NCBI GenBank assembly: GCA_013288445.1
Contig: JABDBX010000016.1
Span: 1 to 33,624 of the forward strand
Length of the DNA stretch: 33,624 bases
Direction: 5' to 3'
Source of the DNA: Bacteroidota bacterium
GTDB lineage: Bacteria; Bacteroidota; Bacteroidia; Chitinophagales; Chitinophagaceae
Position numbers and translations under genes: made by a program. The notes beneath the pieces were generated by a model. It was not told the origin of the DNA, searched no databases, and was given only the letters and a program-made list of their open reading frames with translations. Every line of letters starts with the position of its first letter. The stretch's first letter is position 1. Shown piece after piece: positions 6,718 through 31,418 of the stretch.

Positions 6718-8409
6718 TTAGCTCAAACCTTCAATTTGCCCATTAACGAGTTTAATATGCAGTGCTTGCGGATCCTTCGGAAGGCCGGGCATACGCATTA
6801 TCTCACCGGCTACAGCCACTATAAAGCCTGCCCCGGCATTGATCACCAGGTCGCGGATATTTATCGTAAAGCCTTCGGGCGCACATATCTTCTTTTCATC
6901 ATCAGAGAAAGAATACTGGGTTTTGGCTATACATACCGGCAGGTTGCCCCACCCATTGGCTTCAAACTGTTTCAGTTTTGTAAAGGCGCTGCCATTGTAC
7001 ACCACTTCACCGGCACGGTATATCTTTTTAGCTATTTTCTCGATCTTGGTTTTAATGTGGTCTTCAAGGTCGTAGGTGAAATGTATGTCCTTGGAAGGCA
7101 TGTTCTCTATCACATTCACTACCTTCTGGGCAAGGTCGGCAGCACCTTCGCCGCCCTTTGTAAAACCATTATTTATAGCAAACACCACGCCTTCCTGCTC
7201 ACAGAAATGGGTAAGGAAGTTGATCTCTTCCTCGGTATCATGCTTAAACTTGTTGAACGACACAATAACACTCTGGCCAAAGCCTTTCATGTTCTGTATA
7301 TGCCTTTCCAGGTTTGGTATGCCTGCTATCAGCGCTTCCATGTTCGGCTTGTTGATGTCCGTTGCCGGTACACCGCCATGCAGTTTCAATGCACCAGATG
7401 TCACAACGATCACGGTCGCCTTTGGCCTTAACCCAGACAGGCGGCACTTAATATCGAGGAACTTTTCAGCACCCAGATCGCTTCCGAAGCCCGATTCGGT
7501 AACCACATAATCGTTGCAACTCATAGCCATTTTGGTAGCCAGCACGGTATTGCAGCCGTGGGCTATATTGGCAAACGGGCCGCCATGTACAAATGCAGTT
7601 GTTTGTTCGGTTGTCTGCACAAGGTTCGGCAACAGAGCATCTTTCAGCAATACGGTAATGGCTTCTGCCACGCCCAGGTCTTTAACCGTAAATGGTTTTT
7701 TATCGCGGGTATAACCCAAAACTATGCGCTCAATCCTCGCCTGCAGGTCATCGAGGTCCGATGCGAGGCAGAACAGCGCCATGATCTCGGATGCCGGGGT
7801 TATATCAAAGCCCGCCTCTGTAGGCAGGCCATTAGCACTTCCACCAAGCCCGGTAACAATGTTGCGGAGCGAACGGTCGTTTACATCAGCCACACGACGC
7901 CATACTATGCGGTCGAGCGCTTTTTCGGTATTGCGGTTCTGGTACTGATAGTTGTCAAGCAGCGCAGCTATCATGTTGTTCGCACAAGTGATAGCATGGA
8001 AGTCCCCCGTAAAATGCAGGTTAATATCCTCCATAGGCAATACCTGCGAGTAGCCGCCGCCGGCTGCCCCACCCTTCATCCCAAAACATGGGCCCAGGCT
8101 TGGTTCGCGCAGGGCCACTGCGGCTTTCTTACCGATGTGGTTAAGGCCCAGAGAAAGGGCAACACTCGTAACAGTTTTGCCCACGCCCGCCTTGTTTGGC
8201 GTAATGGCGGTTACCAATATCAGGTTGCTTGCGGCTATTTTCTCTTCGTTTATGTAAGACAGCGGCACTTTGGCTTTGTACTTCCCGTATGGGATAATAT
8301 CATCGGGGTCTATACCCAGGTTTTTTGCTATCTCTGCGATAGGCTTTAATACTGCTGATCTTGAAATCTCAATGTCTGAAGGAAATGGTTTCGTGGCTGT
8401 ATCTGACAT
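6718..8409 (-). CDS. fhs: Formate-tetrahydrofolate ligase
   Basis: 563 aa, the normal length for the family. It makes 10-formyl-THF from formate, THF and ATP, feeding one-carbon units to purine and formyl-Met synthesis. The nucleotide-binding loop is at residues 70-79 ([10 protein letters not shown]), where many family members have TP-x-x-AGEGKT, so the sixth and eighth positions differ but the Gly-Lys-Thr is intact. Other family blocks visible are [10 protein letters not shown] and [20 protein letters not shown], then [10 protein letters not shown] and the C-terminal [10 protein letters not shown]. The start at 8409 fits the family N-terminus and a -7 element 45 bases upstream. Single-gene unit; a housekeeping gene among envelope genes. 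Confidence 0.97.
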
Positions 8410-18198: not shown

Positions 18199-19164
18199 CT
18201 ATGGCGTTACCCGGTAGAGGCTACCGTTGTCGCCAGCCACAAGCAGGTCGCCATTGGGGCATAGGGCTATGCTGCGCAGTGCGTTTGTAGTAAAGCGGTT
18301 ATACTCTTCCCAGTGGTTGCCGCCATCATCCGAATGGATCATTTTACCATCATCGCATACCGCCCAGCCGTTCAGCTCATCCTTAAACAATATACTGAGC
18401 ACGTTGTAGCGCGGCAGGGTTATATCATTGCCATTGCGCAGCCTGCCCCAGTGACTACCACCATCCGTGGTGTGATAAACACCGCCATTATAGCCGCACA
18501 TCCATATTTCATCGCCGTGTATGTCCATTGCCATAAAGTTATCGTTCTCCACATCCTGGAAACTCCAGGTGGCGCCGGTATTAGTGGTTTTCATTACTGT
18601 GCCGTAGCCTATAACATAGCCCGTTGTCGGACTAACCATGTAAATATCATTGAGCCCAAACAAATAGGTTTGCTCATCGATAATGTTGAAGGCGGAATCT
18701 ATGCGTGTAATGGTGCATTGGCGCTGGAGGATGGTATTGACCAGGATACCGGTATCCTTTGAAGGAAATGCAATGCCAACATAATACAGCCAATCGTTCA
18801 CCCTGTTGAACTGCCAGGATTCACCCATGTCGCTGGAGTGTAGCACATCTCCATCCACGCCGCATAAAAAAATGTTCCCGTTTGGCGAAACTGCCATGCC
18901 GTACATCCCCTTTGGCGCTGCCGGATAGGAAGAAGCCGCCCAGGTGTATCCGCCGTCTGTTGACCGCAAAACCACCGACTGATCAAACTTTACACCACCA
19001 GCCGCAATGCATGTATTATTTCCCACAAACCTTATCCTGTTTAGCTGGCAGGTAGCGTTGCTGTTCAATTTCTGAACCTGCTGCCAATGCAAAATATCCT
19101 TCTTGCAGGAAGAAGCCAGAAGAATAATAACAGTGATGCAAATAAAACTTAAGTACCGCAGCAT
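18199..19164 (-). CDS. Asp-box/YCF48-like beta-propeller lipoprotein
   Basis: 321 aa. The signal ends in LASSC, so it should be a lipoprotein anchored at Cys20. Five repeats with the Asp-box form S/T-x-D/N-x-G-x-x-W are spread over the protein: RSTDGGYTWA, HSSDMGESWQ, KTTNTGATWS, HTTDGGSHWG and HSDDGGNHWE. This spacing suits a YCF48/BNR-type beta-propeller. Such proteins in plants and cyanobacteria act in photosystem II assembly (HCF136/Ycf48), but in Bacteroidota the role is unknown and probably structural or binding. It follows the GT-C gene by 14 bases and is likely in its operon. Confidence 0.8.
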   Translation of the reverse strand: MLRYLSFICITVIILLASSCKKDILHWQQVQKLNSNATCQLNRIRFVGNNTCIAAGGVKFDQSVVLRSTDGGYTWAASSYPAAPKGMYGMAVSPNGNIFLCGVDGDVLHSSDMGESWQFNRVNDWLYYVGIAFPSKDTGILVNTILQRQCTITRIDSAFNIIDEQTYLFGLNDIYMVSPTTGYVIGYGTVMKTTNTGATWSFQDVENDNFMAMDIHGDEIWMCGYNGGVYHTTDGGSHWGRLRNGNDITLPRYNVLSILFKDELNGWAVCDDGKMIHSDDGGNHWEEYNRFTTNALRSIALCPNGDLLVAGDNGSLYRVTP

Positions 19165-19178
19165 GAATGCGAATTTCG

Positions 19179-20627
19179 TTATTTTAATTTGTAAACACGT
19201 AGCGTTTCTTTATCAAATATTTTTTCCCCAAGATGGCTCCTGATTCCCGGCAGATCATCTATATTTTCGTCTAAAAATATATATCGCGCGCCTTTACTGA
19301 TATAGAAAGACAGCAGTTGCTCATCGAACCAGGATTTATCGAAAGCCCACCCTTTACGGTCAATGTAATATAGCAGAATATAATGGGAATCATCATAGCC
19401 TGCCACGCATAGCGCACCTGGCGGAGTAAGCGAGCGTAGCTCGTCCTTATACTTGTAGTATGCGCTGTTAAACCCAGGGTCCCTGGTATCCCACCGGCTA
19501 TCGGCCCTTAAATAGGCGGTAAGCGGGAGCGCGCACAAACAGAGCAGCGCCCCATACCTCGCTACTTTCGGGTCACCGAGCATATATTGGGCGCCGTAAG
19601 CTACGAGCAAAAATATGGGTGGCAAGAATAGAAACAGATAATAATCATGGACGAGGTCAATAATATTCATTTCATACAAAAAATAGCTGATAACTACGAT
19701 GCCCCAGGTAAAGAAAGGTATAAAACCAGCTTTTGTGTAAAGTTTGTTCCTGAACAGCAGGTAAAACCCGGCCACAAAGAAAACCACGGAAGCATAATTA
19801 ATAAGCAACTCCGGCAGAACAGATATTAATGTTCCTGTGAGCACGGCAAAAAGATCAGGGTGATTGAGCGTTTGGTTAAACACGCCATGCACGGCGCCGA
19901 TAACCCAACCGGGAATAACGGCAACATACCACGCGGCGGCAGGCATAAGGCACAATATGTAAATAAATGCAACGCGCAGCAACTCCTTCACCGGCAAGCT
20001 TTTTTTAAAAAAAGCGACAGTGAGAAAAGTAGCGATAAATGATCCGTAAATAATAAACGGAAGTTTCGCCATTGTAGCGAGGCACAAAAAAATGCCGCTC
20101 CATATTACCTGCCTTAACTTCCCGCCGCTGGTATAATTGTAAAAAAATCCCAGGCTCCAGATAGCGCAGCACAACGCCATGTTGTCGGGCATAGGGTTTA
20201 GGGTGTAATAATAAAAAACAGGTGAAAAATTAAAGCACCATGCGCCTAAGGTGGCCGTGACTTTGTTGCCCGACACTTTTTGCAGAAAATAAAATATTCC
20301 ATAAACGGAGCACAGGCCAATGATAAAGGAAAGTATCCGGCTGATGACGATATGGGTACCAAAGACTTTGTAAAACAAAGCAAATATCCATTGCATAACA
20401 GGAAATTCCATCCGGTGCAGCCTGTTGGTTTCGGCGTGGTCGTTGAACCGGGGATTGAGTATATTCATATCATCCCGGTAAAAGTTATTTATAACAGTTT
20501 GCGTTTCCGTTTGCCGCCACACATGAATGCCGATGAGGTCCAGATTAAATACATGGAAATGCAACACGAGGCTCACCAAAGGGATAGCCCATAATACAAG
20601 CTTGTAGTGTTTGCGTAAAAATTCCAT
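19179..20627 (-). CDS. GT-C-type membrane glycosyltransferase (GT39-like)
   Basis: 482 aa from ATG 20627 (MEFLRKHYK), chosen because a membrane segment follows directly; a start at 20675 adds 16 residues and would overlap the terminator stem. The first loop holds NLDLIGIHVWRQTETQTV, then RMEFPVMQW, which matches the layout of GT39/ArnT-like enzymes using polyprenyl-phosphate sugars. About ten membrane segments follow and a soluble C-terminal tail of about 110 residues. The acceptor is unknown; being next to the lipoprotein and T9SS genes, glycosylation of exported proteins is possible but unproven. Confidence 0.72.
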   Translation of the reverse strand: MEFLRKHYKLVLWAIPLVSLVLHFHVFNLDLIGIHVWRQTETQTVINNFYRDDMNILNPRFNDHAETNRLHRMEFPVMQWIFALFYKVFGTHIVISRILSFIIGLCSVYGIFYFLQKVSGNKVTATLGAWCFNFSPVFYYYTLNPMPDNMALCCAIWSLGFFYNYTSGGKLRQVIWSGIFLCLATMAKLPFIIYGSFIATFLTVAFFKKSLPVKELLRVAFIYILCLMPAAAWYVAVIPGWVIGAVHGVFNQTLNHPDLFAVLTGTLISVLPELLINYASVVFFVAGFYLLFRNKLYTKAGFIPFFTWGIVVISYFLYEMNIIDLVHDYYLFLFLPPIFLLVAYGAQYMLGDPKVARYGALLCLCALPLTAYLRADSRWDTRDPGFNSAYYKYKDELRSLTPPGALCVAGYDDSHYILLYYIDRKGWAFDKSWFDEQLLSFYISKGARYIFLDENIDDLPGIRSHLGEKIFDKETLRVYKLK

Positions 20628-20656
20628 CTCAGCGATTTCGGCATGAAAATACGCAG

Positions 20657-20685
20657 AAAAAAGCCCACATTTCAAATATGCGGGC
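20657..20685 (-). terminator. Intrinsic terminator after the collagen-like lipoprotein gene
   Basis: On the minus strand GCCCGCAT pairs with ATGTGGGC (one G-U pair, 7-nt loop) and is followed by TTTTTT. It lies about 40 bases after the stop at 20724 and would separate the T9SS/lipoprotein genes from the GT-C and Asp-box genes below. Confidence 0.7.
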
Positions 20686-20723
20686 CAAGTGTAGATGAAA
20701 AAGTGAACGTTGCCAACGACGAA

Positions 20724-21488
20724 TTACGGCGACATTGCTGAATCAACAAGTGGAGCTGCACCCACAGCGGTATATACGTTACGGCCGGTTGACGGGTCTT
20801 CATAAGCCGATACATCGTTGGTTACATAGCTATATGCCGCATAATAAACCATTTCGCCATAAAATATATTTACACCGTTAAGGTCTGACGCAGGTACACG
20901 TATCACCACATTTGTTTGCCATGTTGTTATCGCTTTCACATAAGCCAGCAGATAGTTTGCCGGGAAGTTATTAACGGGCATTTTATTATTCACAAACAGT
21001 ATGAGGTTTCGGGGTTTAGTATCTGGTGTTACAGTGATAACCACAGAGTCGAATGCTGAACCATGATTGTAGGTCGCCGAGAGGGCAGTGGGATTAAAAT
21101 TAGGAATGGCTGACAGCTTTATATCCTGGTTCATGGTGTCGCTTAGGAACTCAATGTTTGGGATCATCGTTGCTCCATATCCGGTAGTGGCCGCTGACAA
21201 GAAATAAGTGCCTGTAGAAACGTTGCCGAAGAAGTAATATCCATTCTGGTCGGCAGTAGCTGTTGCGCCGCCCTTCAACATAAGCTGCACCGCATCCAGA
21301 CCGGTGTTTTGTTTGGTGCCATACATATCATACAGGCTCACATGCCCGTTGATAGCCCCTGTAAACGAAACCCCCGAAGGTCCTGCTGGCCCAGCCGGAC
21401 CAGCAAGGCCGGTATTACCTTTTTTAGTACACGAAGCGGCCAGGAAAACAATTCCCAGCGATAGCATAACAAGTTTATTCTTTACCAT
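20724..21488 (-). CDS. Lipoprotein with short collagen-like stretch and CarboxypepD_reg-like domain
   Basis: 254 aa. Signal ending LAASC (Cys20), then TKKGNT and five Gly-x-y triplets (GLAGPAGPAGPSGVS), too few for a stable triple helix alone. Residues about 43-115 (INGHVSLYDMYGTKQNTGLD, then ADQNGYYFFGNVSTGTYFLS) have the pattern of a carboxypeptidase-regulatory-like or SpaA-like beta-sandwich common in Bacteroidota surface proteins. The last 130 residues are not recognised. It lies 44 bases downstream of the third T9SS paralogue, so probably co-transcribed, and ends at a clear terminator. Confidence 0.75.
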   Translation of the reverse strand: MVKNKLVMLSLGIVFLAASCTKKGNTGLAGPAGPAGPSGVSFTGAINGHVSLYDMYGTKQNTGLDAVQLMLKGGATATADQNGYYFFGNVSTGTYFLSAATTGYGATMIPNIEFLSDTMNQDIKLSAIPNFNPTALSATYNHGSAFDSVVITVTPDTKPRNLILFVNNKMPVNNFPANYLLAYVKAITTWQTNVVIRVPASDLNGVNIFYGEMVYYAAYSYVTNDVSAYEDPSTGRNVYTAVGAAPLVDSAMSP

Positions 21489-21532
21489 AACATTGATTTA
21501 CTGTGTTTCTGATTTTATAAAATGATCTCCTT

Positions 21533-23191
21533 TTATTCCTTCACGAATTTACTGTTTTGTTGCACACCATCCTGCCGGTACAAAACGTCGTACAGCCCGT
21601 TTGGTAATTTGCTCACGTCTGCTTCATACCGGTTTCCGTTTTTTATTATCGCTGCGTTCATTACTTGCCCTAAAGTATTAAATACCTGTATTGTGGGCGC
21701 AGACCCGTTGGTGTTTATACCTTCAATAATCAATTTATCGTGCGCAGGGTTGGGATAAACGCTAATGTACTGTCCCGTCGCAATAGCTGGTACATCTGCA
21801 GTTAACGTGTTGTGGTAAAAAGCCCAGGCCGTATCGGCCACTATTTTTATGTTGTCGAAATTTGTGAGTCCGCACCACTGCCCCGCTCCGGTATCTGTGG
21901 CCACCATGGCCATAACAATTTTTTCCGTTGTCCCCACAGCTAGTGTGAAATCGTTACTGGTGACGATAAACCGCGCATCACTTGGATTGTTTCCGCAGTT
22001 ACATTCCGACCACTGGTTAGTGGTATCGCCCGGATCTCCTGTGAAAACATAATTACAATCCGGCCCGGCTCCATATCCTTTACACGGATGCCCCCTTCCC
22101 GAAAAATCATTGGTGAAATGTTCGCCATTTCTGAGCTTTGAGCGCATGTAGTTACTATACTCCGTATCCACTGTCGGGCTCCCAATAATTGACGAATCAT
22201 TATTGAAATAAGTAAAGCTGCCTGCTGGCACATAGCTCGTTCCGGCATCTCCCGGCAATACGACCATTGTCACCCCTACTACTGGCTCATTTACCTTGTA
22301 TGAATTAACGGGATTTAAGTTCTGGCGGCCATTGTACCCAATTCCCATCCGGTATGAAGAATCGAAGCCAATGTAATCATCAATATAGAACCCAATATCT
22401 ATATCATCCCATAGCCCAGCCCTGAAATTGTGGTAATCATTCCCTGATTTGTTCATGATGTTGTATTCATAGTAAACCACGTTATCTATCAGTGTACCCC
22501 GGCGAAAACCGTAACACATGGCATGTACCTCTACGCCCATGGGTGTGCCGTTGGTTTGGTTATGCGTTGGGCCGTTATCGTTAAATACCCACCACAGCGC
22601 CTGGTTACCCTTTATGTCGGGGTAGTCGCCGAGCAAAGGTTCGTATATACCGTTGCCATTGAGGTCTATAAATGGCGCCATGTCATCAGTAATTGTTAGT
22701 GGCGTTCCGGCGTTACCTTGTGCGTAAGTATTGCCCTTCCCCGGCCACGTGAGAATAGACTGTGGTGTATTTACCGTGGTATGCGAGGGCAGCGACAGGA
22801 AATCAATAATATCCGTTAGATTCACCTTCCATATTTTAGCCCAGGCATAAGATGTAGCGTAGCTAAGCGGACCGCTTGTGTTTATCGGGCCCGGCCAATA
22901 GTCATTCCCATGTTGCCGGTACGTTTGTGCCGCAATATGCAACGCTCCGCCCGCGTCATAGCCGCCCATCCACAATGCGCTGGCGAAGTTTATGTTCCTG
23001 CTATTGTTTCCCCGAATGTTACATTCGGCCACCTGTGCTGTTGGGTCCCACCACATATCGCCATGCACCAATATAGCAGAAGAAATATTATTGATGTTTA
23101 TAGAATCCATTGTATTAAACGGAAACTGCGCGCGGGCAATAGTACCGGATAAGACACTCAACAACAGCAAAAATGGCAACTGTTTCTTCAT
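21533..23191 (-). CDS. T9SS type A sorting-domain protein, paralogue 3
   Basis: 552 aa. Signal peptide (QLPFLLLLSVLSGTIARAQ), a long conserved body, and a C-terminal sorting domain with the classic start ISVYPNPAHDKLIIEG, then VFNTLGQVM, then LPNGLYDVLY and final KFVKE. The body has the blocks HGDMWW, YRQHGNDYWPGP, YAWAKIWKVNLTDI, ILTWPGKGNTYAQGN and DDMAPFIDLNGNGIYEPLLG. The last resembles a calcium-binding D-x-N-x-N-G loop. It is therefore secreted by T9SS and anchored at the surface; the function of the body family is unknown to me. It follows paralogue 2 by 24 bases and should share its mRNA. Confidence 0.88.
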   Translation of the reverse strand: MKKQLPFLLLLSVLSGTIARAQFPFNTMDSININNISSAILVHGDMWWDPTAQVAECNIRGNNSRNINFASALWMGGYDAGGALHIAAQTYRQHGNDYWPGPINTSGPLSYATSYAWAKIWKVNLTDIIDFLSLPSHTTVNTPQSILTWPGKGNTYAQGNAGTPLTITDDMAPFIDLNGNGIYEPLLGDYPDIKGNQALWWVFNDNGPTHNQTNGTPMGVEVHAMCYGFRRGTLIDNVVYYEYNIMNKSGNDYHNFRAGLWDDIDIGFYIDDYIGFDSSYRMGIGYNGRQNLNPVNSYKVNEPVVGVTMVVLPGDAGTSYVPAGSFTYFNNDSSIIGSPTVDTEYSNYMRSKLRNGEHFTNDFSGRGHPCKGYGAGPDCNYVFTGDPGDTTNQWSECNCGNNPSDARFIVTSNDFTLAVGTTEKIVMAMVATDTGAGQWCGLTNFDNIKIVADTAWAFYHNTLTADVPAIATGQYISVYPNPAHDKLIIEGINTNGSAPTIQVFNTLGQVMNAAIIKNGNRYEADVSKLPNGLYDVLYRQDGVQQNSKFVKE

Positions 23192-23215
23192 AAAATTAGT
23201 TTTAAGCCAATGACT

Positions 23216-24886
23216 TTATTCCTTCACGAACCGGCTATTTTGCTCCACACCATCCTGCCGGTACAAGACATCATACAGGCCGTTTGGTAATTTGCTCAGG
23301 TCGGCTTCATACCGGTTTCCGTTTTTACTTATAGATATATTCATTACTTGCCCTAAAGTATTAAATACCTGTATTGTGGGTATTGATCCGCTAACCATAC
23401 ACTCTATGATGAGTTTATCGTGCGTCGGATTTGGATAGATGTTGATGTATTGTTGCTGGCTTATTTTAGGCACACCCGCTGTCTCATCTCTATGGTAAAC
23501 CGCCCAGGCAGTATCTGCTACTATTTTTATGCGATCATAGCTTCCGAACCCGCAGCCCCCTGCAGAATCGGCAACGATCAGCGCCAGCAAAATATGAGCT
23601 GAACTGCCAGCATTTAGCGGGAAACTATTGCTGGAAAGAACGAAACGCTGATCACCAAAAAAAGTTCCGAAATTCTTGCATTGCGACCATTGGTCAGTGT
23701 CTGACGGGTCACCGGTAAAAACATAGTTGCAATCAGGGCCAGAGCCATAACCGACAGCCAGGCTACCCGGCCCTGAATAGTCATTCTTAAAATGCTGCCC
23801 GTTCCTGAGTTTCGACCGCATATAGTTGTTGTATTGCGTGTCTATCACAGGATCTCCCACAATAGACGCATCATCGTTGAAATAAGTAAAGCTGCCTGCG
23901 GGAACATAGCCGGAGCCCGCATCACCTGGCAGTACGATCATGGTTATTGCATTTTGCGGTGGATTAATCCCGTAAGAGAGCGTGGTAGGAGAACCATTTG
24001 AACAACCGTCGCAATTTACAGCATTGTAATTAATGCCCATCCGCCAGGTGGAATCAAAGCCAATATAATCGGAAAAAGCTGAGGGATATCCCATTGTACC
24101 ATTATCCCACTGGCTGAACCTGAAATCGGTATAGTTGTTTGCCGACTTATTGATGATCGTGTAATCATAATAAACCACATCGTCTATCAGTGTGCCGCGG
24201 CTGTATCCATAAGACATGGCATGAACCTCCACGCCCAATGGCCTGCCGTTTGTTTCGGTATGCACCGGGCCGTTGTCGCTGAATACCCACCACAGCGCCT
24301 GGTTACCTTTTATGTCGGGGTAGTCGCCCAGCAATGGCTCATATATGCCGTTGCCATTGAGGTCTATAAATGGCGCCATATCGTCAGTAATTGTTAGTGG
24401 CGCACCGGCGTTGCCTTGCGCATAAGTATTCCCCTTCCCCGGCCACGTGAGTATAGACTGTGGTGTATTTACCGTCGTATGCGAAGGCTGCGCCAGAAAA
24501 TCGATAATATCGGTAAGGTTCACTTTCCATATTTTAGCCCAGGCGTAGGCCGTGGCATAGCTAAGAGTATCACCGGTGAGCGGCCCTGGCCAGTAGTCAT
24601 TCCCGCGTTGCCTGTACGTTTGTGCCGCAATATGCAACAGCCCGGTACTATCATAGCCCGACATCCATATTGCGCTGGTGTTGTTTATGTGTTTCTTTGT
24701 CCCGCTCGGAAAAAAGCAGGTAGGCGCGGTAGTAGCGGGGTTCCACCACATATCGCCATGCACCAATACTCTAGCGTTTACGTTATTTATATCTAACGAG
24801 TCCATTGTATTGAAGGGAAACTGCGCATAAGTAGCAGCGCCATGTATAACGCCCAATAAAAACAACACCACGAATAGTTTTCCCAT
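23216..24886 (-). CDS. T9SS type A sorting-domain protein, paralogue 2
   Basis: 556 aa from ATG 24886, which begins the signal peptide GKLFVVLFLLGVIHGAATYA and gives nearly the same length as its neighbours (552 and 555). A longer open frame reaches 25018 but runs through an inverted repeat, so I reject it. The body shares the blocks of paralogues 1 and 3 (for example NTPQSILTWPGKGNTYAQGN and DIKGNQALWWVFSDNGP). It differs most in the middle, where it has an insertion with Cys residues (NAVNCDGCSNGSPTT) absent from the others. The sorting tail is YINIYPNPTHDKLIIECMVS, then VFNTLGQVM, ending RFVKE. Confidence 0.88.
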   Translation of the reverse strand: MGKLFVVLFLLGVIHGAATYAQFPFNTMDSLDINNVNARVLVHGDMWWNPATTAPTCFFPSGTKKHINNTSAIWMSGYDSTGLLHIAAQTYRQRGNDYWPGPLTGDTLSYATAYAWAKIWKVNLTDIIDFLAQPSHTTVNTPQSILTWPGKGNTYAQGNAGAPLTITDDMAPFIDLNGNGIYEPLLGDYPDIKGNQALWWVFSDNGPVHTETNGRPLGVEVHAMSYGYSRGTLIDDVVYYDYTIINKSANNYTDFRFSQWDNGTMGYPSAFSDYIGFDSTWRMGINYNAVNCDGCSNGSPTTLSYGINPPQNAITMIVLPGDAGSGYVPAGSFTYFNDDASIVGDPVIDTQYNNYMRSKLRNGQHFKNDYSGPGSLAVGYGSGPDCNYVFTGDPSDTDQWSQCKNFGTFFGDQRFVLSSNSFPLNAGSSAHILLALIVADSAGGCGFGSYDRIKIVADTAWAVYHRDETAGVPKISQQQYINIYPNPTHDKLIIECMVSGSIPTIQVFNTLGQVMNISISKNGNRYEADLSKLPNGLYDVLYRQDGVEQNSRFVKE

Positions 24887-24935
24887 AGAATGATATTCAA
24901 TGTGGTTATCTGATAAAAAAAATAGAACTCTTGCA

Positions 24936-25083
24936 TAGTAGCCCCGGTCTTTAGACCGGGGATTGCTGACAACAGGACAGGCTTTAGCCAAAATCACACA
25001 ACACAAAATGTCCGGCAAGAGTAATTTTCGGCTAAAGCCTACCTACTTCTTATTCTACCCCGGTCTAAAGACCGGGGCTACTA
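24936..25083. repeat. 148-bp nested inverted-repeat element (BIME/REP-like)
   Basis: The outer arms, 24936-24961 and 25058-25083, are perfect 26-base inverted copies, and each is itself palindromic (CCCCGGTCT-TT-AGACCGGGG). An inner pair, AGGCTTTAGCC (24979-24989) and GGCTAAAGCCT (25030-25040), lies in the same nested order. No frame with a plausible gene lies inside. It fills most of the 255-base gap between paralogues 1 and 2. The design, palindromic units in opposed orientation, is that of paired REP sequences (BIMEs), which are moved by RAYT transposases; no such gene is in this window. Confidence 0.85.
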
Positions 25084-25141
25084 ATACAACGCCAGACATA
25101 CCGCAACCCCGGATATAGCGTAACGTACACTGCACTTTACT

Positions 25142-26809
25142 TTATTCTTTCACGAACCGGCTGTTTTGTTCTATCCCATCCTGTCGGTACAATACATCGT
25201 ACAGCCCGTTTGATAATTTGCTCACGTCGGCTTCGTAACGGTTCCCGTTTTTATTAATAGCTACGTTCATCACCTGGCCAAGCGTATTAAATACCTGTAT
25301 CGTTGGTATTGATCCGCTAACCATGCTCTCTATGTTGAGCTTATCATGCGCCGGATTTGGGTAGATATTGACGTATTGTTGCTGGCTTATTTTAGACACA
25401 CCGGCCGTTACGGTGCTTTGATACACCGCCCAGGCCGTATCTGCTACTATCTTTATGTTGGTGAAGTTTGCATCGGGGCAGCCGCCACCAGCGCCCGTGT
25501 CGGTGGTCACGAGCGCCATCACTATGCGCTGGGTGGCGCCCGCATTAAGGGTAAAGTCGTTGCTGGTAATAATAAACCGCCGGTCGCCGGGATTATTACT
25601 ACAGTTACATTCCGACCATTTTGTGGTGTCTCCCGGATCGCCGGTGTAAACGTAGTTGCAGTTTGGTCCAGCCCCGTGACCGTAGCTCATTATTCCCCTA
25701 CCTGTAAAATCGTTGGTAAAATGGGCGCCGCTCCTTATTCTTGAGCGGAGGTAGTGGTCATATTCCGTATCTACCATAGGGTTACCGATAATTGATAGAT
25801 CATTATTGTAATACGTAAAGCTGCCCGCAGGCGCATAGCTTGTTCCTGCATCACCCGGCATCACTATCATCGTCAACCCCACAATTGGTACACTGGTGCC
25901 ATAAGAATTGAGCGGATGGCCACCGGCTACACCATCATCGGTAGTGCCGTTATAACAGATGCCCATCCTGTGCGAGGAATCGAACCCGATGAAGTCATCA
26001 AGATAGTAGCCCAGGTCCACGTCATCAAACTGCCCCATCCTGAAATTGTGGTAGTCGTTAACCGATTTATTGGCAACGTAGTATTCGTAAAAAACCACGT
26101 TATCAACAAGTGTATTTCGGTGAAAGCCATAGCACATAGCGTGTACTTCAACCCCCAATGGTTTGCCTTTAGTTTCGTTGTGAGACGGGCCGTTGTCGTT
26201 GAATACCCACCACAACGCCTGGTCGCCCTTAATATCCGGGAACTCGCCCAGTAGCGGCTCGTATATGCCGTTGCCATTAAGGTCTATGAACGGGGCCATG
26301 TCATCTGTAACCGTAAGCGAAATGCCGAGGTTGCCGGTGGCGTACGTATTCCCCTTCCCCGGCCAGGTAAGTATTGAAGCAGGGGTGTTGGCTATGGTAT
26401 GGGAACTTAATCCCAGGAAGGTAAGAATATCTGTCAGGTTCACCTTCCAAATTTTGGCCCATGCGTGCGATGTTGCATAGTTTATGGAGTCGCCTGTGCT
26501 TATTGGCCCCGGCCAGTAGTCGTTCCCGTTTTGCCGGTAAGTGGCTGCGGCTATATGCAATTGTCCGCCCGGGTCGTAGCCCGACATCCACAACGAACTG
26601 GCAAAATTGATACTTGCAGGGTAGTTTTTAGGAAAATAGCAATGTGCCACCTCCAGGTCAGGGTTCCACCACATATCGCCATGAACCAATACCGAGGCAT
26701 TGATATTGTTGATGTTTATGGAATCAATGGTATTGAAGGGAATCTGGCCATAAGAAAGGTTGGCTGACAGGATACTCAGCATAAGTAACACAATAGAGCG
26801 TTTCTTCAT
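25142..26809 (-). CDS. T9SS type A sorting-domain protein, paralogue 1
   Basis: 555 aa, the first of the three tandem copies in transcription order and the one with a promoter. Signal peptide RSIVLLMLSILSANLSYGQ. Same body blocks as the others (HGDMWWNP, YRQNGNDYWPGP, AWAKIWKVNLTDI, DDMAPFIDLNGNGIYEPLLG, DIKGDQALWWVFNDNGP) and a sorting tail YVNIYPNPAHDKLNIESMVS, then VFNTLGQVM, ending RFVKE. Its tail is closest to paralogue 2, whereas parts of its middle (HNFRMGQFDDVDLGYYLDDF, TNDFTGRG, NPGDRRFIITSNDF) are closer to paralogue 3. Such a mosaic suggests gene conversion between copies. Confidence 0.88.
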   Translation of the reverse strand: MKKRSIVLLMLSILSANLSYGQIPFNTIDSININNINASVLVHGDMWWNPDLEVAHCYFPKNYPASINFASSLWMSGYDPGGQLHIAAATYRQNGNDYWPGPISTGDSINYATSHAWAKIWKVNLTDILTFLGLSSHTIANTPASILTWPGKGNTYATGNLGISLTVTDDMAPFIDLNGNGIYEPLLGEFPDIKGDQALWWVFNDNGPSHNETKGKPLGVEVHAMCYGFHRNTLVDNVVFYEYYVANKSVNDYHNFRMGQFDDVDLGYYLDDFIGFDSSHRMGICYNGTTDDGVAGGHPLNSYGTSVPIVGLTMIVMPGDAGTSYAPAGSFTYYNNDLSIIGNPMVDTEYDHYLRSRIRSGAHFTNDFTGRGIMSYGHGAGPNCNYVYTGDPGDTTKWSECNCSNNPGDRRFIITSNDFTLNAGATQRIVMALVTTDTGAGGGCPDANFTNIKIVADTAWAVYQSTVTAGVSKISQQQYVNIYPNPAHDKLNIESMVSGSIPTIQVFNTLGQVMNVAINKNGNRYEADVSKLSNGLYDVLYRQDGIEQNSRFVKE

Positions 26810-26895
26810 AAAATGGAATTAGGTTACCAATATAAAGCAGGACATGCTTCTTATAACTATAGACGTAAAAAAAGGGGGAGTTCTTGGGTGAGAAA

Positions 26896-26903
26896 CAAAG
26901 ATA
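26896..26903 (-). promoter_or_regulatory. -7 promoter element of the T9SS paralogue block
   Basis: TATCTTTG on the minus strand matches TAnnTTTG, 86 bases upstream of ATG 26809 and just after the DUF58 stop at 26912. No clear -33 box. The implied leader is about 80 nt. Confidence 0.45.
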
Positions 26904-26911
26904 TTTTTCTT

Positions 26912-28252
26912 TTACACCATTTGCCGGGCCTTCAATTCCAGGTATTTGTTGATTATGTCAATCGTGAGGGTTTGGGGCGTGGTGAGTATAGATAGCACAC
27001 CATGCCGCCGTAGCTCTTTAACTATTAGCCGCTTTTCCAGGTCGAATTGGTCGGCTATTGTTTTTATGTAGATGCCCTCAATATTATCTGGGGTGGATTC
27101 GTGTATTTCTTTTAGCAGCGTATTTTGGAAAAAGACAACGCAGGTAAGATGCCGCTGTGCAATTTTTTTCAGAAAGGGCAGTTGCCGCTCTAACGATGAG
27201 TAAGTCTCGAAATTGGTGAACAGCAATACCAGGCTGCGTTGGGTTATACCCCGGTGCACGGTACTCCATACTGCTTCGTAGTCGCTTTCTTTAAATTGGG
27301 TTTGCTGTTTGTAAAGCGTGTCCAATATTCGGTGTAGCTGGTTTGGCCGCCGGTCTGCCGCAATAATATCATTTACCTTGTCGGAAAATGTTATGAGGCC
27401 GGCCTTATCCTGTTTCAGCAAGGCCACATTCAGCAGTGCCAGGCTGGCATTTATGGAATGGTCGAGAAGGGTCATACCTTCAAACGGCATCTTCATGTTG
27501 CGGCCCTTGTCTATGAGGCAGTATATCTGCTGTTGCCGGGCGTCTGTGAAGGTATTCACCATCAGGTTGCTGCTGCGGGCGGTGGCCTTCCAGTTTATGG
27601 TACGCACATCATCGCCCTGCACATAATCCTTTATCTTCTCAAACTCCAGGCTGTGGCCCACCCTGCGGATCTTTTTTACCCCACTCAGCGTATTGCCGCT
27701 TACGGCCAGCAACTGGTACCTTCTCAGTTGCTGGTAAGAAGGATAAACCTTCACCACCACAGGCTCTGCCGTCTTAAAACGCCGCTGCACAAAACCTATG
27801 GGGCTGGAAGCATAGCACAGCAAATTGCCGAACCCAAACTCGCCGCGCGACAAGGGACGCAACTTATAGGTTACGGTTTCCCGCGACCTGTACCCGATAG
27901 CCACGGCTAAATGAAAATTGCGCTCCTGGAACTGGAAAGGAAGTTCTTCAATAAGCGCACCTTTTATCTTGAAAGGAAACGAATTAGAAAGAGAAAGGGT
28001 AACCAGGTTCTCATCACCGATACTGAACCGCGGCGACATGATACGCACCGCATTCATACCCCCTTTGAAAAAAAAGAGCAAGGCATAATCCACAAAAGTG
28101 AGCAGCAGCACAAAGCCGGTGAACGCCAATACCGGCTGGTATAAAAAATGAACAAAGTAAGCAAGGAACAACAAAATGACACAAGCGCCCAGCAGCAAAA
28201 ACCATCGCTTGCTGATGTAGAGGTCTGAGATGTATTTGCTGAGGGATTTCAA
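26912..28252 (-). CDS. DUF58 domain protein (MoxR-associated, vWA-like)
   Basis: 446 aa. Two membrane segments at about residues 17-35 and 40-62, then a beta-rich part and the DUF58 core at 207-231 (KDYVQGDDVRTINWKATARS; Tyr210, Trp221 and Arg226 are family-conserved). A vWA-like region follows with a degenerate metal site (CLIDKGRNM, 246-253). DUF58 proteins pair with MoxR AAA+ ATPases, which are thought to act as chaperones for vWA-type partners. Normally the gene directly follows moxR; here it starts 910 bases after the MoxR stop, beyond an inserted pair of genes on the other strand, and has its own -7 element. Confidence 0.9.
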   Translation of the reverse strand: MKSLSKYISDLYISKRWFLLLGACVILLFLAYFVHFLYQPVLAFTGFVLLLTFVDYALLFFFKGGMNAVRIMSPRFSIGDENLVTLSLSNSFPFKIKGALIEELPFQFQERNFHLAVAIGYRSRETVTYKLRPLSRGEFGFGNLLCYASSPIGFVQRRFKTAEPVVVKVYPSYQQLRRYQLLAVSGNTLSGVKKIRRVGHSLEFEKIKDYVQGDDVRTINWKATARSSNLMVNTFTDARQQQIYCLIDKGRNMKMPFEGMTLLDHSINASLALLNVALLKQDKAGLITFSDKVNDIIAADRRPNQLHRILDTLYKQQTQFKESDYEAVWSTVHRGITQRSLVLLFTNFETYSSLERQLPFLKKIAQRHLTCVVFFQNTLLKEIHESTPDNIEGIYIKTIADQFDLEKRLIVKELRRHGVLSILTTPQTLTIDIINKYLELKARQMV

Positions 28253-28295
28253 TGGGAATTATGGGCTGAAACTTTGCTTTTTTTGGTCGCAAAAA

Positions 28296-28303
28296 CAAAT
28301 TTA
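28296..28303 (-). promoter_or_regulatory. Likely own promoter -7 element of the DUF58 gene
   Basis: TAAATTTG on the minus strand matches TAnnTTTG and lies 43 bases upstream of ATG 28252. No TTG at standard distance. It would let DUF58 be expressed although it is cut off from the MoxR transcript by the intervening region. Confidence 0.4.
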
Positions 28304-28352
28304 CAATGTTTTATACATCTCGCCGCATAAGTTTGTGCAATGATAAACGGGC

Positions 28353-28503
28353 AAGCCCGATAGGGCTTAAATGATGAATAGCCACCGGTGAAACCGGTGG
28401 GAAAATAGATGTGGTCATTGAACCCCGGCGGGGTTCAACTGGTATAACCCTGAAGACTCCGGGTTGCACCCGGAGCTATTCACATTAAAGCCTTCCAGGC
28501 TTT
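28353..28503. repeat. Array of five consecutive short hairpins
   Basis: Five separate palindromes fall within 151 bases: AAGCCC-GATA-GGGCTT (28353-28368), CCACCGGT-GAA-ACCGGTGG (28382-28400), TTGAACCCC-GGC-GGGGTTCAA (28418-28438), CTCCGGGT-TGC-ACCCGGAG (28457-28475) and AAAGCCT-TCC-AGGCTTT (28487-28503). Four have loops of exactly 3 nt. Centre spacings are about 30, 37, 38 and 29 bases. The last is followed by TT and could weakly terminate plus-strand transcription. They fill the gene-free stretch 28253-28661 together with two promoter elements. Reminiscent of REP clusters; no coding frame spans them convincingly. Confidence 0.85.
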
Positions 28504-29162: not shown

Positions 29163-30146
29163 TTACCTCGGTATCTCCATCCTTCCTATTATTTCCTTAA
29201 TTACATCATCCGTTGTGGCTCCTTCCATTTCCCGCTCGGGAGTAAGGCCTATACGATGGCGAAGTACAGCCGGGGCAGCCTGCAATATATCTTCGGGTAT
29301 CACAAAAGTTCGCCCGCGCAATACACTGAAGGCTTTTGATATTTGCAACAGAGCTATCGAAGCCCGTGGCGATGCACCGAGGTACAACGACCGGTCGTTG
29401 CGGGTTTCCCATATGATACGTGCTACAAACTCCAGCAACTTGGGCTCTATATGTGTAGCCCGTACCTGCATCCGCGCGTTGGCCAATACCTCCGGAGTTA
29501 TTACCGGCTTCATATTTGCCAGCAATTCAGTGATCTCGTACTGGTTATGGCGCTCCAATATTTTTACTTCTTCTTCAAGCGAAGGATAGCCTACTGTTAT
29601 CTTCACAAGGAACCGGTCCAGTTGGGCTTCCGGCAGACGATAAGTGCCTTCATGCTCTATAGGGTTTTGGGTGGCAATTACCATGAAAGGCGACTGCATT
29701 TTGTGGGTAAGCCCATCTACAGTTACCTGCCGCTCTTCCATCACCTCAAACAGCGCCGATTGTGTTTTGGCGGGAGCGCGGTTTATCTCATCTATAAGCA
29801 CTATGTTGCTGAATATAGGACCTGACTTGAACTGGAAGCTGGAAGTTTGCGGGTTGAATATACTGGCGCCTACCACGTCACTCGGCATCAGGTCTGGGGT
29901 GAACTGCAGCCGCGAGAACCGGGTATCTATGAGCTTGGAAAGAAGTTTTGCAGTAAGGGTCTTGGCAACGCCGGGCACACCCTCTATCAGTATATGCCCA
30001 TCGGCTAGCAAGCCTGCGAGCAATTGTTCCACCATGCCGTGCTGCCCCACGATCACCTGGTGAATGCTTGCTTCTACCAGTTCCACCAACTGGGTAAGCG
30101 GCTGTATGGTACTGTCCTGTGTCTGCTCTTGTAATTCCGGTTCCAT
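29163..30146 (-). CDS. MoxR-family AAA+ ATPase
   Basis: 327 aa, standard length. Walker A GVPGVAKT at residues 56-63 (Lys62), Walker B LIDE at 117-120, sensor 1 ATQNP at 158-162, and LPEAQLDRF at 171-179. The family acts as a chaperone-like ATPase for vWA/DUF58 partners. Its ATG follows the DUF4350 stop with no gap (30146/30147), so it is co-translated with the upstream genes. The downstream partner DUF58 has been moved away by an insertion. Confidence 0.95.
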   Translation of the reverse strand: MEPELQEQTQDSTIQPLTQLVELVEASIHQVIVGQHGMVEQLLAGLLADGHILIEGVPGVAKTLTAKLLSKLIDTRFSRLQFTPDLMPSDVVGASIFNPQTSSFQFKSGPIFSNIVLIDEINRAPAKTQSALFEVMEERQVTVDGLTHKMQSPFMVIATQNPIEHEGTYRLPEAQLDRFLVKITVGYPSLEEEVKILERHNQYEITELLANMKPVITPEVLANARMQVRATHIEPKLLEFVARIIWETRNDRSLYLGASPRASIALLQISKAFSVLRGRTFVIPEDILQAAPAVLRHRIGLTPEREMEGATTDDVIKEIIGRMEIPR

Positions 30147-31418
30147 TTAATGCTTCTTTTTATAAAATTGCTGAATGGTGTTATATAGCTGGTAAAGATA
30201 CGCGTCATCTGTTTTCGCATCGCCCAATTTTATTTCATGGATCATCTCCATAAGCCCGCGCACGGTAGCCTCTGGCTGGCCGGACTTGATGGTGAGCTGC
30301 TGTATGAAATTTTCGTTAAGCAGGTTGGTGTTCAGAAAGTAGTGCATCCGCACCCACTCCAGGAACTGCTGCACCATTTTCTCTGCAAGATTGGCGTGGT
30401 GGCCCTTGTTGTAGTATAGCCTACCCACAGTCTCCACAAACGAAACCGACTCGTTCCTAAGCGGGGCAATAATAGGTATGATCCGTTGCTTTCTTTTTCC
30501 CTCAAACAACACGTATAGCAGCAGCGCCATCAACGCCAGCAACATCGCATATTTGGTTGCCGGATACTTCCACAGCCCGCCGAGGCTGGACGACTCGGCC
30601 GCTCGTTTGGCATAAATGCACCAGTAGAGGTGGGTAATATCGCCTGGGAATGCTTGCCAGATACCAGATAGGTACTGCTCATTGCCGTCCTGCAAAAGGA
30701 AATAATTAGAGAGCGCCAGCGGCGCCGCATGTAGCGTAAGGTGGCCCTTGCCATACGGGTAGCGCACAAAATCGGGGTGGGTACCGGCAAAGCCTAATGT
30801 ATCGGGATAGGTCCATTCGCTATATACTATATTGCCCGAATCATCGGTATCATGTACCGTAGTATTTGGGTTATCTAACGGCACATCGAAATAGCCTTTT
30901 AAAAACCGGCCACTATACCCATATCTTTTCCCCGGCTGGCTATTCAGTTCCAGCACATTCTTATTCTCCCCAAATGTTTTTACGCCAAAGAGGTCCACAT
31001 AGTCTTCCATCCCTCCTGTTTTATAACATTGCAACTCGCTCTGTATCTTACTATCGAACCGGCTGCCGAATATTACCACTTCATTGCCGTCCCTGATAAA
31101 TTTTTTCAGCTCCGCCCATTCTTCATCTGAGAGGTAAAAATCGAGCCCTTCCATAATAAGCAGCGACCGGTTGTAATTACTGTATTTCATTTTGGCATCC
31201 ATGTCATCAAACCGGAACCGGCCCGACAATGTTTCCATCGCCACTCCAGGAAAATAATATTTCAATGACTGGTACGCCAGGTAGGTGCCATAAGGGCTTT
31301 TGTCTTCGTAGCCCAGGGTAATGCGCCATTTCATGCGCTCCACGGTAGCCTTGTCTGGCTTGCAACCAGGCAGCAGCAGTAACAGTAGCCCAATAATTAC
31401 ATACCTGCCCTTGCTCAT
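30147..31418 (-). CDS. DUF4350 domain protein
   Basis: 423 aa. A hydrophobic N-terminus ends in LLPGC (Cys19), a possible lipobox. Residues about 35-260 form a periplasmic domain of the DUF4350/GldG-like type (DKSPYGTYLAYQSLKYYFPG, then EGLDFYLSDEEWAELKKFI, then VVIFGSRFD). A membrane segment at about 290-306 (YAMLLALMALLLYVLF) and a cytoplasmic helical tail follow. In Bacteroidota this protein sits between DUF4129 and MoxR, as here. It overlaps DUF4129 by 4 bases (ATGA) and abuts MoxR. Exact role unknown. Confidence 0.87.
   Translation of the reverse strand: MSKGRYVIIGLLLLLLPGCKPDKATVERMKWRITLGYEDKSPYGTYLAYQSLKYYFPGVAMETLSGRFRFDDMDAKMKYSNYNRSLLIMEGLDFYLSDEEWAELKKFIRDGNEVVIFGSRFDSKIQSELQCYKTGGMEDYVDLFGVKTFGENKNVLELNSQPGKRYGYSGRFLKGYFDVPLDNPNTTVHDTDDSGNIVYSEWTYPDTLGFAGTHPDFVRYPYGKGHLTLHAAPLALSNYFLLQDGNEQYLSGIWQAFPGDITHLYWCIYAKRAAESSSLGGLWKYPATKYAMLLALMALLLYVLFEGKRKQRIIPIIAPLRNESVSFVETVGRLYYNKGHHANLAEKMVQQFLEWVRMHYFLNTNLLNENFIQQLTIKSGQPEATVRGLMEMIHEIKLGDAKTDDAYLYQLYNTIQQFYKKKH

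Follow-up and report, generated by a model that had tools for sequence, protein, structure and literature searches.

Cargo proteins of the type IX secretion system (T9SS) account for a large share of the cell surface in many Bacteroidota. A close described parallel to the genes treated here is provided by the gingipains and HagA of Porphyromonas gingivalis, surface proteins exported by the T9SS in which domain rearrangement and the exchange of alleles make the modules vary; gene conversion is discussed there for surface-protein alleles (PMC5266723). The locus described here lies in a 33,624-nucleotide stretch of DNA ('the window'), which is the entire contig C16 (JABDBX010000016.1) of a 3.05-Mb, 65% complete assembly (GCA_013288445.1) from the Chitinophagaceae; its closest contig matches are records of uncultured Bacteroidetes, Chitinophagaceae, Flavipsychrobacter and Taibaiella. 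It holds three tandem genes, p1, p2 and p3, for predicted T9SS cargo, which an original prediction made from the sequence alone had singled out as mosaic paralogues shaped by gene conversion. The mosaic is real, and the sequences support recombination between the paralogues, be it gene conversion or an equivalent exchange of bodies, as its cause; the case is built on tracts at silent sites, permutation tests and conflicting trees.

21533..23191, minus strand: p1, predicted T9SS type A cargo of 552 aa, with a signal-like N-terminus, a modelled beta-supersandwich body (residues 22-469) and a sorting tail (residues 478-552)
23216..24886, minus strand: p2, paralogue of 556 aa with a CDGC insertion
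25142..26809, minus strand: p3, paralogue of 555 aa, first in the array after a DUF58 gene

Mosaic similarity among p1, p2 and p3

All three genes are intact, open and provided with their own starts, in keeping with the three tandem paralogues originally predicted; for p2 the mechanically called reading frame begins at a TTG at 25018, and the ATG start gives 556 aa. The intergenic gaps measure 255 bp between p3 and p2 and 24 bp between p2 and p1, and the proteins p2 and p3 are 68% and 71% identical to p1, respectively. When nucleotide segments were scored against 500 codon shuffles, the best p1/p2 segments reached 138 and 70 (99% limit 42) and the best p2/p3 segment 69 (limit 35), while the best p1/p3 segment, in the tail (69/77), scored 37, just under its 99% limit of 38. 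The resulting tracts are 85-90% identical at the nucleotide level, and the strongest p1/p2 tract is a block in the core of the body, which the original prediction does not mention.

p1 22584..22846 and p2 24282..24544, minus strand: core tract of p1/p2, 238/263 nt, from segment scoring and four-fold sites, p1 residues 116-203
p1 21563..21697 and p2 23246..23380, minus strand: tail tract of p1/p2, 122/135 nt, from segment scoring
p2 23223..23476 and p3 25149..25402, minus strand: tail tract of p2/p3, 217/254 nt, from segment scoring

Silent positions follow the same outline. Along the codon alignment, p1 and p2 share 0.70-0.77 of their third positions across columns 121-210 and 0.87 across columns 511-540 but only 0.36-0.57 across columns 211-510; for p2 and p3 this identity rises to 0.76 across columns 481-510. 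Of the four-fold sites, p1 and p2 have 40/59 in common within the core, 14/21 within the tail and 20/63 within the middle region (Fisher tests against the middle, 1.2e-4 for the core and 0.009 for the tail), and in the core neither p2/p3 nor p1/p3 shows an excess of identical four-fold sites. Uniform divergence along the genes is ruled out. Since silent sites fall to near background outside the tracts, recombination explains the mosaic better than protein constraint.

Two elements of the original prediction need rewording. The sorting tails, said to be nearly identical, are less alike than that, the protein identity of the tails within the trio being 78-88%. The claim that p1 resembles p2 in the tail and p3 in the middle holds for the proteins, the middle of p1 being 70% identical to that of p3 and 59% to that of p2; recent conversion is ruled out as the source of the p1/p3 middle likeness, because four-fold sites there are at background level (26/78), and older ancestry would account for it.

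Recurrence in related arrays, trees of the separate regions and the locus

We compared 64 short-form genes of 380-720 aa from the window and from the loci of relatives other than L066-L068, using a silent-site permutation test in which P<0.01 was counted. Among close relatives 8/23 same-locus pairs reached this level, against 0/150 sampled pairs from different loci (four of these control pairs had P<0.05), and in ten other arrays, picked because family matches stood close together, 16/50 pairs did so. In the window itself the test gives 0.0095 for p1/p2. Read by eye, the midpoint of the best tract lies within the last 100 residues in 6/8 of the close-relative pairs and 12/16 of the pairs from the ten arrays (binomial 7e-4 and 4e-9, treating as independent pairs that are not). 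The tail is also where different loci are least alike: mean amino acid identity between loci is 0.63 in the core, 0.48 in the middle and 0.30 in the tail. In other genomes of the phylum, tail tracts were seen in two arrays of long family members: L149, with six genes (one of them ended by the contig edge), and L150, with five.

Trees of the separate regions disagree with one another, firmly so for the middle regions of L056 and L070 and less clearly for the window. With L049 and L050 recognised as contigs of the same genome, arrays were monophyletic in FastTree trees of the tail in 5/9 testable cases, of the core in 3/11 and of the middle in 1/11. More careful trees were made from 35 of the 64 genes, drawn from 24 loci, with the middle region set at 216-455. 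The window trio forms one clade in the tail tree (99/96) and again in the core tree (99/96). In the middle tree, the first L056 gene pairs with the first L070 gene (100/100), those in third place in L056, L070 and L075 group weakly (96/71), no such pairing is seen for the second genes, and p2 groups with genes of L070, L056, L075 and L042 (89/84, not starred). The middle region rejects the L056 trio as a group (p-AU 1.4e-8), the L070 trio (1.9e-75) and p2 together with p3 (0.013); the tail tree in turn rejects the six-gene middle clade with p2 (4e-10) and p2 with L070_8690 (1.2e-4). For the L056 and L070 arrays these trees point firmly to old classes of middle sequence that are shared between species.

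The array occupies a conserved locus, bordered by a DUF58 gene on one side and a YCF48-like gene on the other, with the following genes around it in the window:

26912..28252, minus strand: DUF58 protein, marking one edge of the array locus in relatives
29163..30146, minus strand: MoxR-type AAA ATPase, common neighbour
30147..31418, minus strand: DUF4350 protein, common neighbour
20724..21488, minus strand: lipoprotein-like gene; its GPAGPAG stretch is collagen-like
19179..20675, minus strand: PMT_2 glycosyltransferase, neighbour in some relatives
18199..19164, minus strand: YCF48/BNR-repeat protein, the other border of the array locus

In L056, L060 and L070 the lipoprotein-like gene flanks the array on the opposite side. 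Copy number was counted at the 12 distinct loci where both borders were seen, repeats (L071-L074, L077) and single-border loci such as L039, L042, L045 and L048 standing outside the count. A single copy is present in L053, L054, L058, L060, L081, L083 (together with a fragment) and L102, the locus of the cultured relative Taibaiella soli R1-15. L043 has two copies, of which one is interrupted by an internal stop, and the window, L056, L070 and L075 have three each; relatives therefore carry one, two or three copies and not the same three orthologues throughout. Short-form genes occur in 16/24 same-genus genomes (table read by eye), at a maximum of six places in G009, where two matches are ended by contig edges. 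In G004:C71 (L044 4530-10075) about 4 kb interrupt a family gene; they hold smaller ORFs and a transposase-like ORF, which we take to be of the IS1595 type. A short-form gene with MoxR and DUF58 genes next to it is found, too, in a different family of the order (L067, G026:C4). Within window positions 20500-28400, promoter-like sites were no commoner than in shuffled sequence (11 versus 14.5); terminator-like sites exceeded it (19 versus 7.8), 18/19 of them within genes.

Modelled body fold, predicted export and tail sharing

The body had been called a family of unknown kind. It matches no Pfam or NCBIfam family and no PDB sequence, so that it is still unnamed, yet its modelled structure is recognisable. 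An AlphaFold2 model of p1, built with 48 sequences, has a mean pLDDT of 88.3 and a pTM of 0.79, and its residues 22-469 fit the N-terminal domain of bacterial glucoamylase (the structure entries presumably being GH15), glucodextranase, GH65, GH94 and GH116 enzymes in Foldseek and VIA-align. Among the matches listed by VIA-align, 50 entries have Z 14.9-18.7 and rmsd 3.0-4.4 over 215-277 residues, the best with Z 18.7 and 3.5 A over 256 residues; the comparison covers these listed matches, and folds beyond them remain candidates. In the enzymes the N-domain is a beta-supersandwich that is followed by an (alpha/alpha)6 barrel. No such barrel is present in p1, which ends 83 residues past the matched range, in the sorting tail. 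The body of p1 would thus resemble the N-domains of GH15, GH65, GH94 and GH116 in fold, but differs from them in that no sequence similarity was found, the barrel is missing and a T9SS tail takes its place. We read p1 as non-catalytic because the sorting tail stands where the barrel would follow.

Profile searches agree in finding little besides the tail. The A2 profile matched eight PDB sequences, all in the tail; Pfam at E up to 1 found the tail in 39 of 48 members and any other family in at most four, weakly, including SOGP_4th, a glycoside-phosphorylase domain, in one member (E 0.0098). A longer form of about 1340 aa (L108-L147), present by eye in 23/24 same-genus genomes, carries the same body at its N-terminus, and its C-terminal part was modelled too poorly (mean pLDDT 62.9) for a structure search. 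Pfam found no catalytic domain in six long or divergent members and seven array members of other genomes; its matches there were to tails, to PKD in a single protein and otherwise weak. Searched alone at E up to 0.001, the body is matched in 54/197 sampled near-complete genomes of the phylum and in 0/7 listed genomes from other genera of the same family; the full-length query matches in 40/40 relatives' genomes, which is no count of the body because that query included the tail. In the 65% complete source genome there is no body match elsewhere, not even a partial copy, and eight further places match the tail only.

24002..24016, minus strand: NCDGC motif of p2 (residues 291-295); CDGC also occurs in related arrays of other species
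22622..22666, minus strand: loop DLNGNGIYEP, conserved in the core (residues 176-190 of p1)

The core loop is, we assume, similar to calcium-binding loops. The cysteine-containing insertion, thought to be unique to p2, is not: CDGC is found in 4/64 short-form genes, namely p2 plus a single gene from each of L056, L070 and L075, and a further L070 gene carries CNGC.

Export by the T9SS is supported for p1-p3 by the sorting-tail families PF18962 (Por_Secre_tail) and TIGR04183, against which the three tails score 43.9, 40.0 and 43.8 bits (curated cut-off 27) in one library and 37.9, 33.6 and 34.2 bits (cut-off 23) in the second. The genome also holds SprA (TIGR04189; 2450 bits, cut-off 200), the only T9SS component searched for, and the N-terminus looks signal-like by eye, with a helix at residues 4-18 in the p1 model. 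From the tail matches and the SprA gene, export followed by attachment to the surface seems probable.

The same genome (G000) has at least 144 sorting-tail matches (150/166 candidates scored), and we surveyed hand-picked clusters of such genes in 20 G000 regions besides the window and in 20 regions of G013; survey pairs were judged by identity, the permutation test having covered the body-family arrays. Tails more than 50% identical occurred in 7/38 same-locus pairs of G000 (three of them the window's) versus 3/300 sampled cross-locus pairs, and in 6/35 versus 0/300 in G013. The cross-locus maximum in G000 was 0.66, a smaller sample of 150 having given none above 0.46; tail sharing between loci is rare, then, but not absent. 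Related bodies in the pairs of L158, L161, L162, L179, L181 and L185 explain part of the sharing, and silent identity barely exceeds the background of 0.36 in L179 (25/54), L181 (20/52) and L185 (26/54). The L178 pair (G000:C102, 2009-3385 and 3489-4964), by contrast, combines unrelated bodies with a common 223-nt tail, 79% identical (blastn 8e-52), and raised silent identity (35/57). In G013 silent identity is raised in the L191 cluster (G013:C1) alone, where the genes starting at 7473 and 719 have unrelated bodies and 31/51 silent sites alike; the remaining L191 pairs include an ORF of 107 aa that consists almost wholly of tail and has too little body to be compared. The L191 genes starting at 719, 4064 and 7473, the middle one being that ORF, have tails alike at 0.53-0.82. 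The reverse mosaic is seen in L158 (G000:C18, 1933-3180 and 4069-5310), with bodies 86% identical over 324 aa and tails at 0.41, and many related neighbours lack a common tail (e.g. L164, L172, L184, L188). Tail sharing among T9SS neighbours is sporadic.

Competing explanations and known systems

We favour, with a probability of about 0.62, an explanation that takes the locus as a tandem T9SS-cargo array with supersandwich bodies, partially homogenised by recombination. Each protein of this small array would consist of a single beta-supersandwich domain with a type A sorting tail behind it. The array sits at a conserved locus, with copy number varying by species and some copies broken. Recombination between neighbours would repeatedly have made the sorting tails alike, and in this species the core block too, while the middle region would have retained distinct sequence classes, some of them common to several species. 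The most likely role of the proteins is to bind or display something on the cell surface without catalysis, and the middle region may set specificity; carbohydrate is perhaps the ligand, the least sure step of the proposal.

Several observations weigh against this explanation. The permutation test gives 0.013 for p2/p3 and 0.36 for p1/p3, and no tract at P<0.01 appears in 15/23 close-relative pairs and 34/50 of the other pairs. In the tail tree L070 is not one clade, the L056 and L070 tails forming a joint group (93/82), and the tail does not reject the first L056 gene with the first L070 gene (p-AU 0.069). Old trans-species classes of the middle region are only suggested for the window, because grouping of the trio (p-AU 0.093) or of p1 with p2 (0.207) is not rejected there. 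The fold assignment comes with low Foldseek TM-scores, at most 0.36 among the matches listed, and with no supporting match in sequence, and the source is a metagenome-assembled genome (MAG) only 65% complete.

The chief competitor, to which we give a real but minor share of belief, reverses the direction of movement: tails would be resident, and recombination would bring in different bodies, perhaps those of other species. Such exchange would leave an identical mosaic, and both the L158 pair, with its similar bodies and dissimilar tails, and the L178 pair, with unrelated bodies over common tails, speak for it. Scrambled import would not, however, pair the first genes of L056 and L070 (100/100) or group, weakly, the third ones of L056, L070 and L075 (96/71), an argument from gene order that is not decisive because the second genes are unpaired and the CDGC gene of the window is itself second. 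Programmed antigenic or phase variation, in which donor cassettes convert an expressed copy, would also fit a mosaic, presumed surface protein with tracts and variable copy number, antigenic variability having been raised as a possibility in the original prediction; with three open genes that have their own starts, no partial body copy elsewhere in the incomplete genome, and homogenisation of the tail and core instead of the variable middle, we consider it improbable.

Less probable still is duplication followed by strong purifying selection on tail and core without recombination. It can point to the core, which is also the most conserved region between loci (0.63 versus 0.48 for the middle), but the tail is the least conserved between loci (0.30) and yet 0.78-0.88 identical within the window, identity at four-fold sites of the core shows no rise for p1/p3 or p2/p3, and four-fold sites vary along one and the same pair. 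Purifying selection alone is ruled out. Lowest of all we rate mis-joined reads in the MAG. By hand count in same-genus genomes, contig ends do cut short-form genes more often per kb than long-form genes (8/33 versus 2/23, P 0.0075), but tracts recur in several independent assemblies, and those of the window are not collapsed reads because they are 85-90% and not 100% identical.

Beyond the homogenised array we favour for this locus, it is a speculative and rather doubtful extension that sorting tails act across Bacteroidota as local recombination anchors, neighbouring cargo genes copying tails even where their bodies are unrelated. If true, bodies and tails would evolve as separable cassettes, and arrays could vary what they display while keeping a working export tail. 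If neighbours copy tails, tail similarity is unusable for reconstructing cargo history, and tails and bodies have to be treated as modular. A confident fold model, from which tests can be designed, is now available for the body family, which is without a Pfam or NCBIfam model and is found in 54/197 phylum genomes.

Among the papers listed by literature searches, in a collection short of most subscription journals, none was seen to describe homogenised tails in neighbouring T9SS genes or to treat this body family. The gingipain and HagA variation concerns strains of one species and repeated adhesin modules (PMC5266723); here, in contrast, the units are single-domain neighbouring paralogues of an unnamed family, the tracts lie in tail and core, and species are compared. 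A second likeness is to the long-lasting concerted evolution described in prokaryotes (PMC6053082), where paralogues within a species are closer than orthologues between species; in the present arrays the effect is partial, reaching the tail and core but not the middle. Overall, this partial concerted evolution of T9SS cargo is real but not unprecedented, a variant of known surface-protein evolution and not a new kind.

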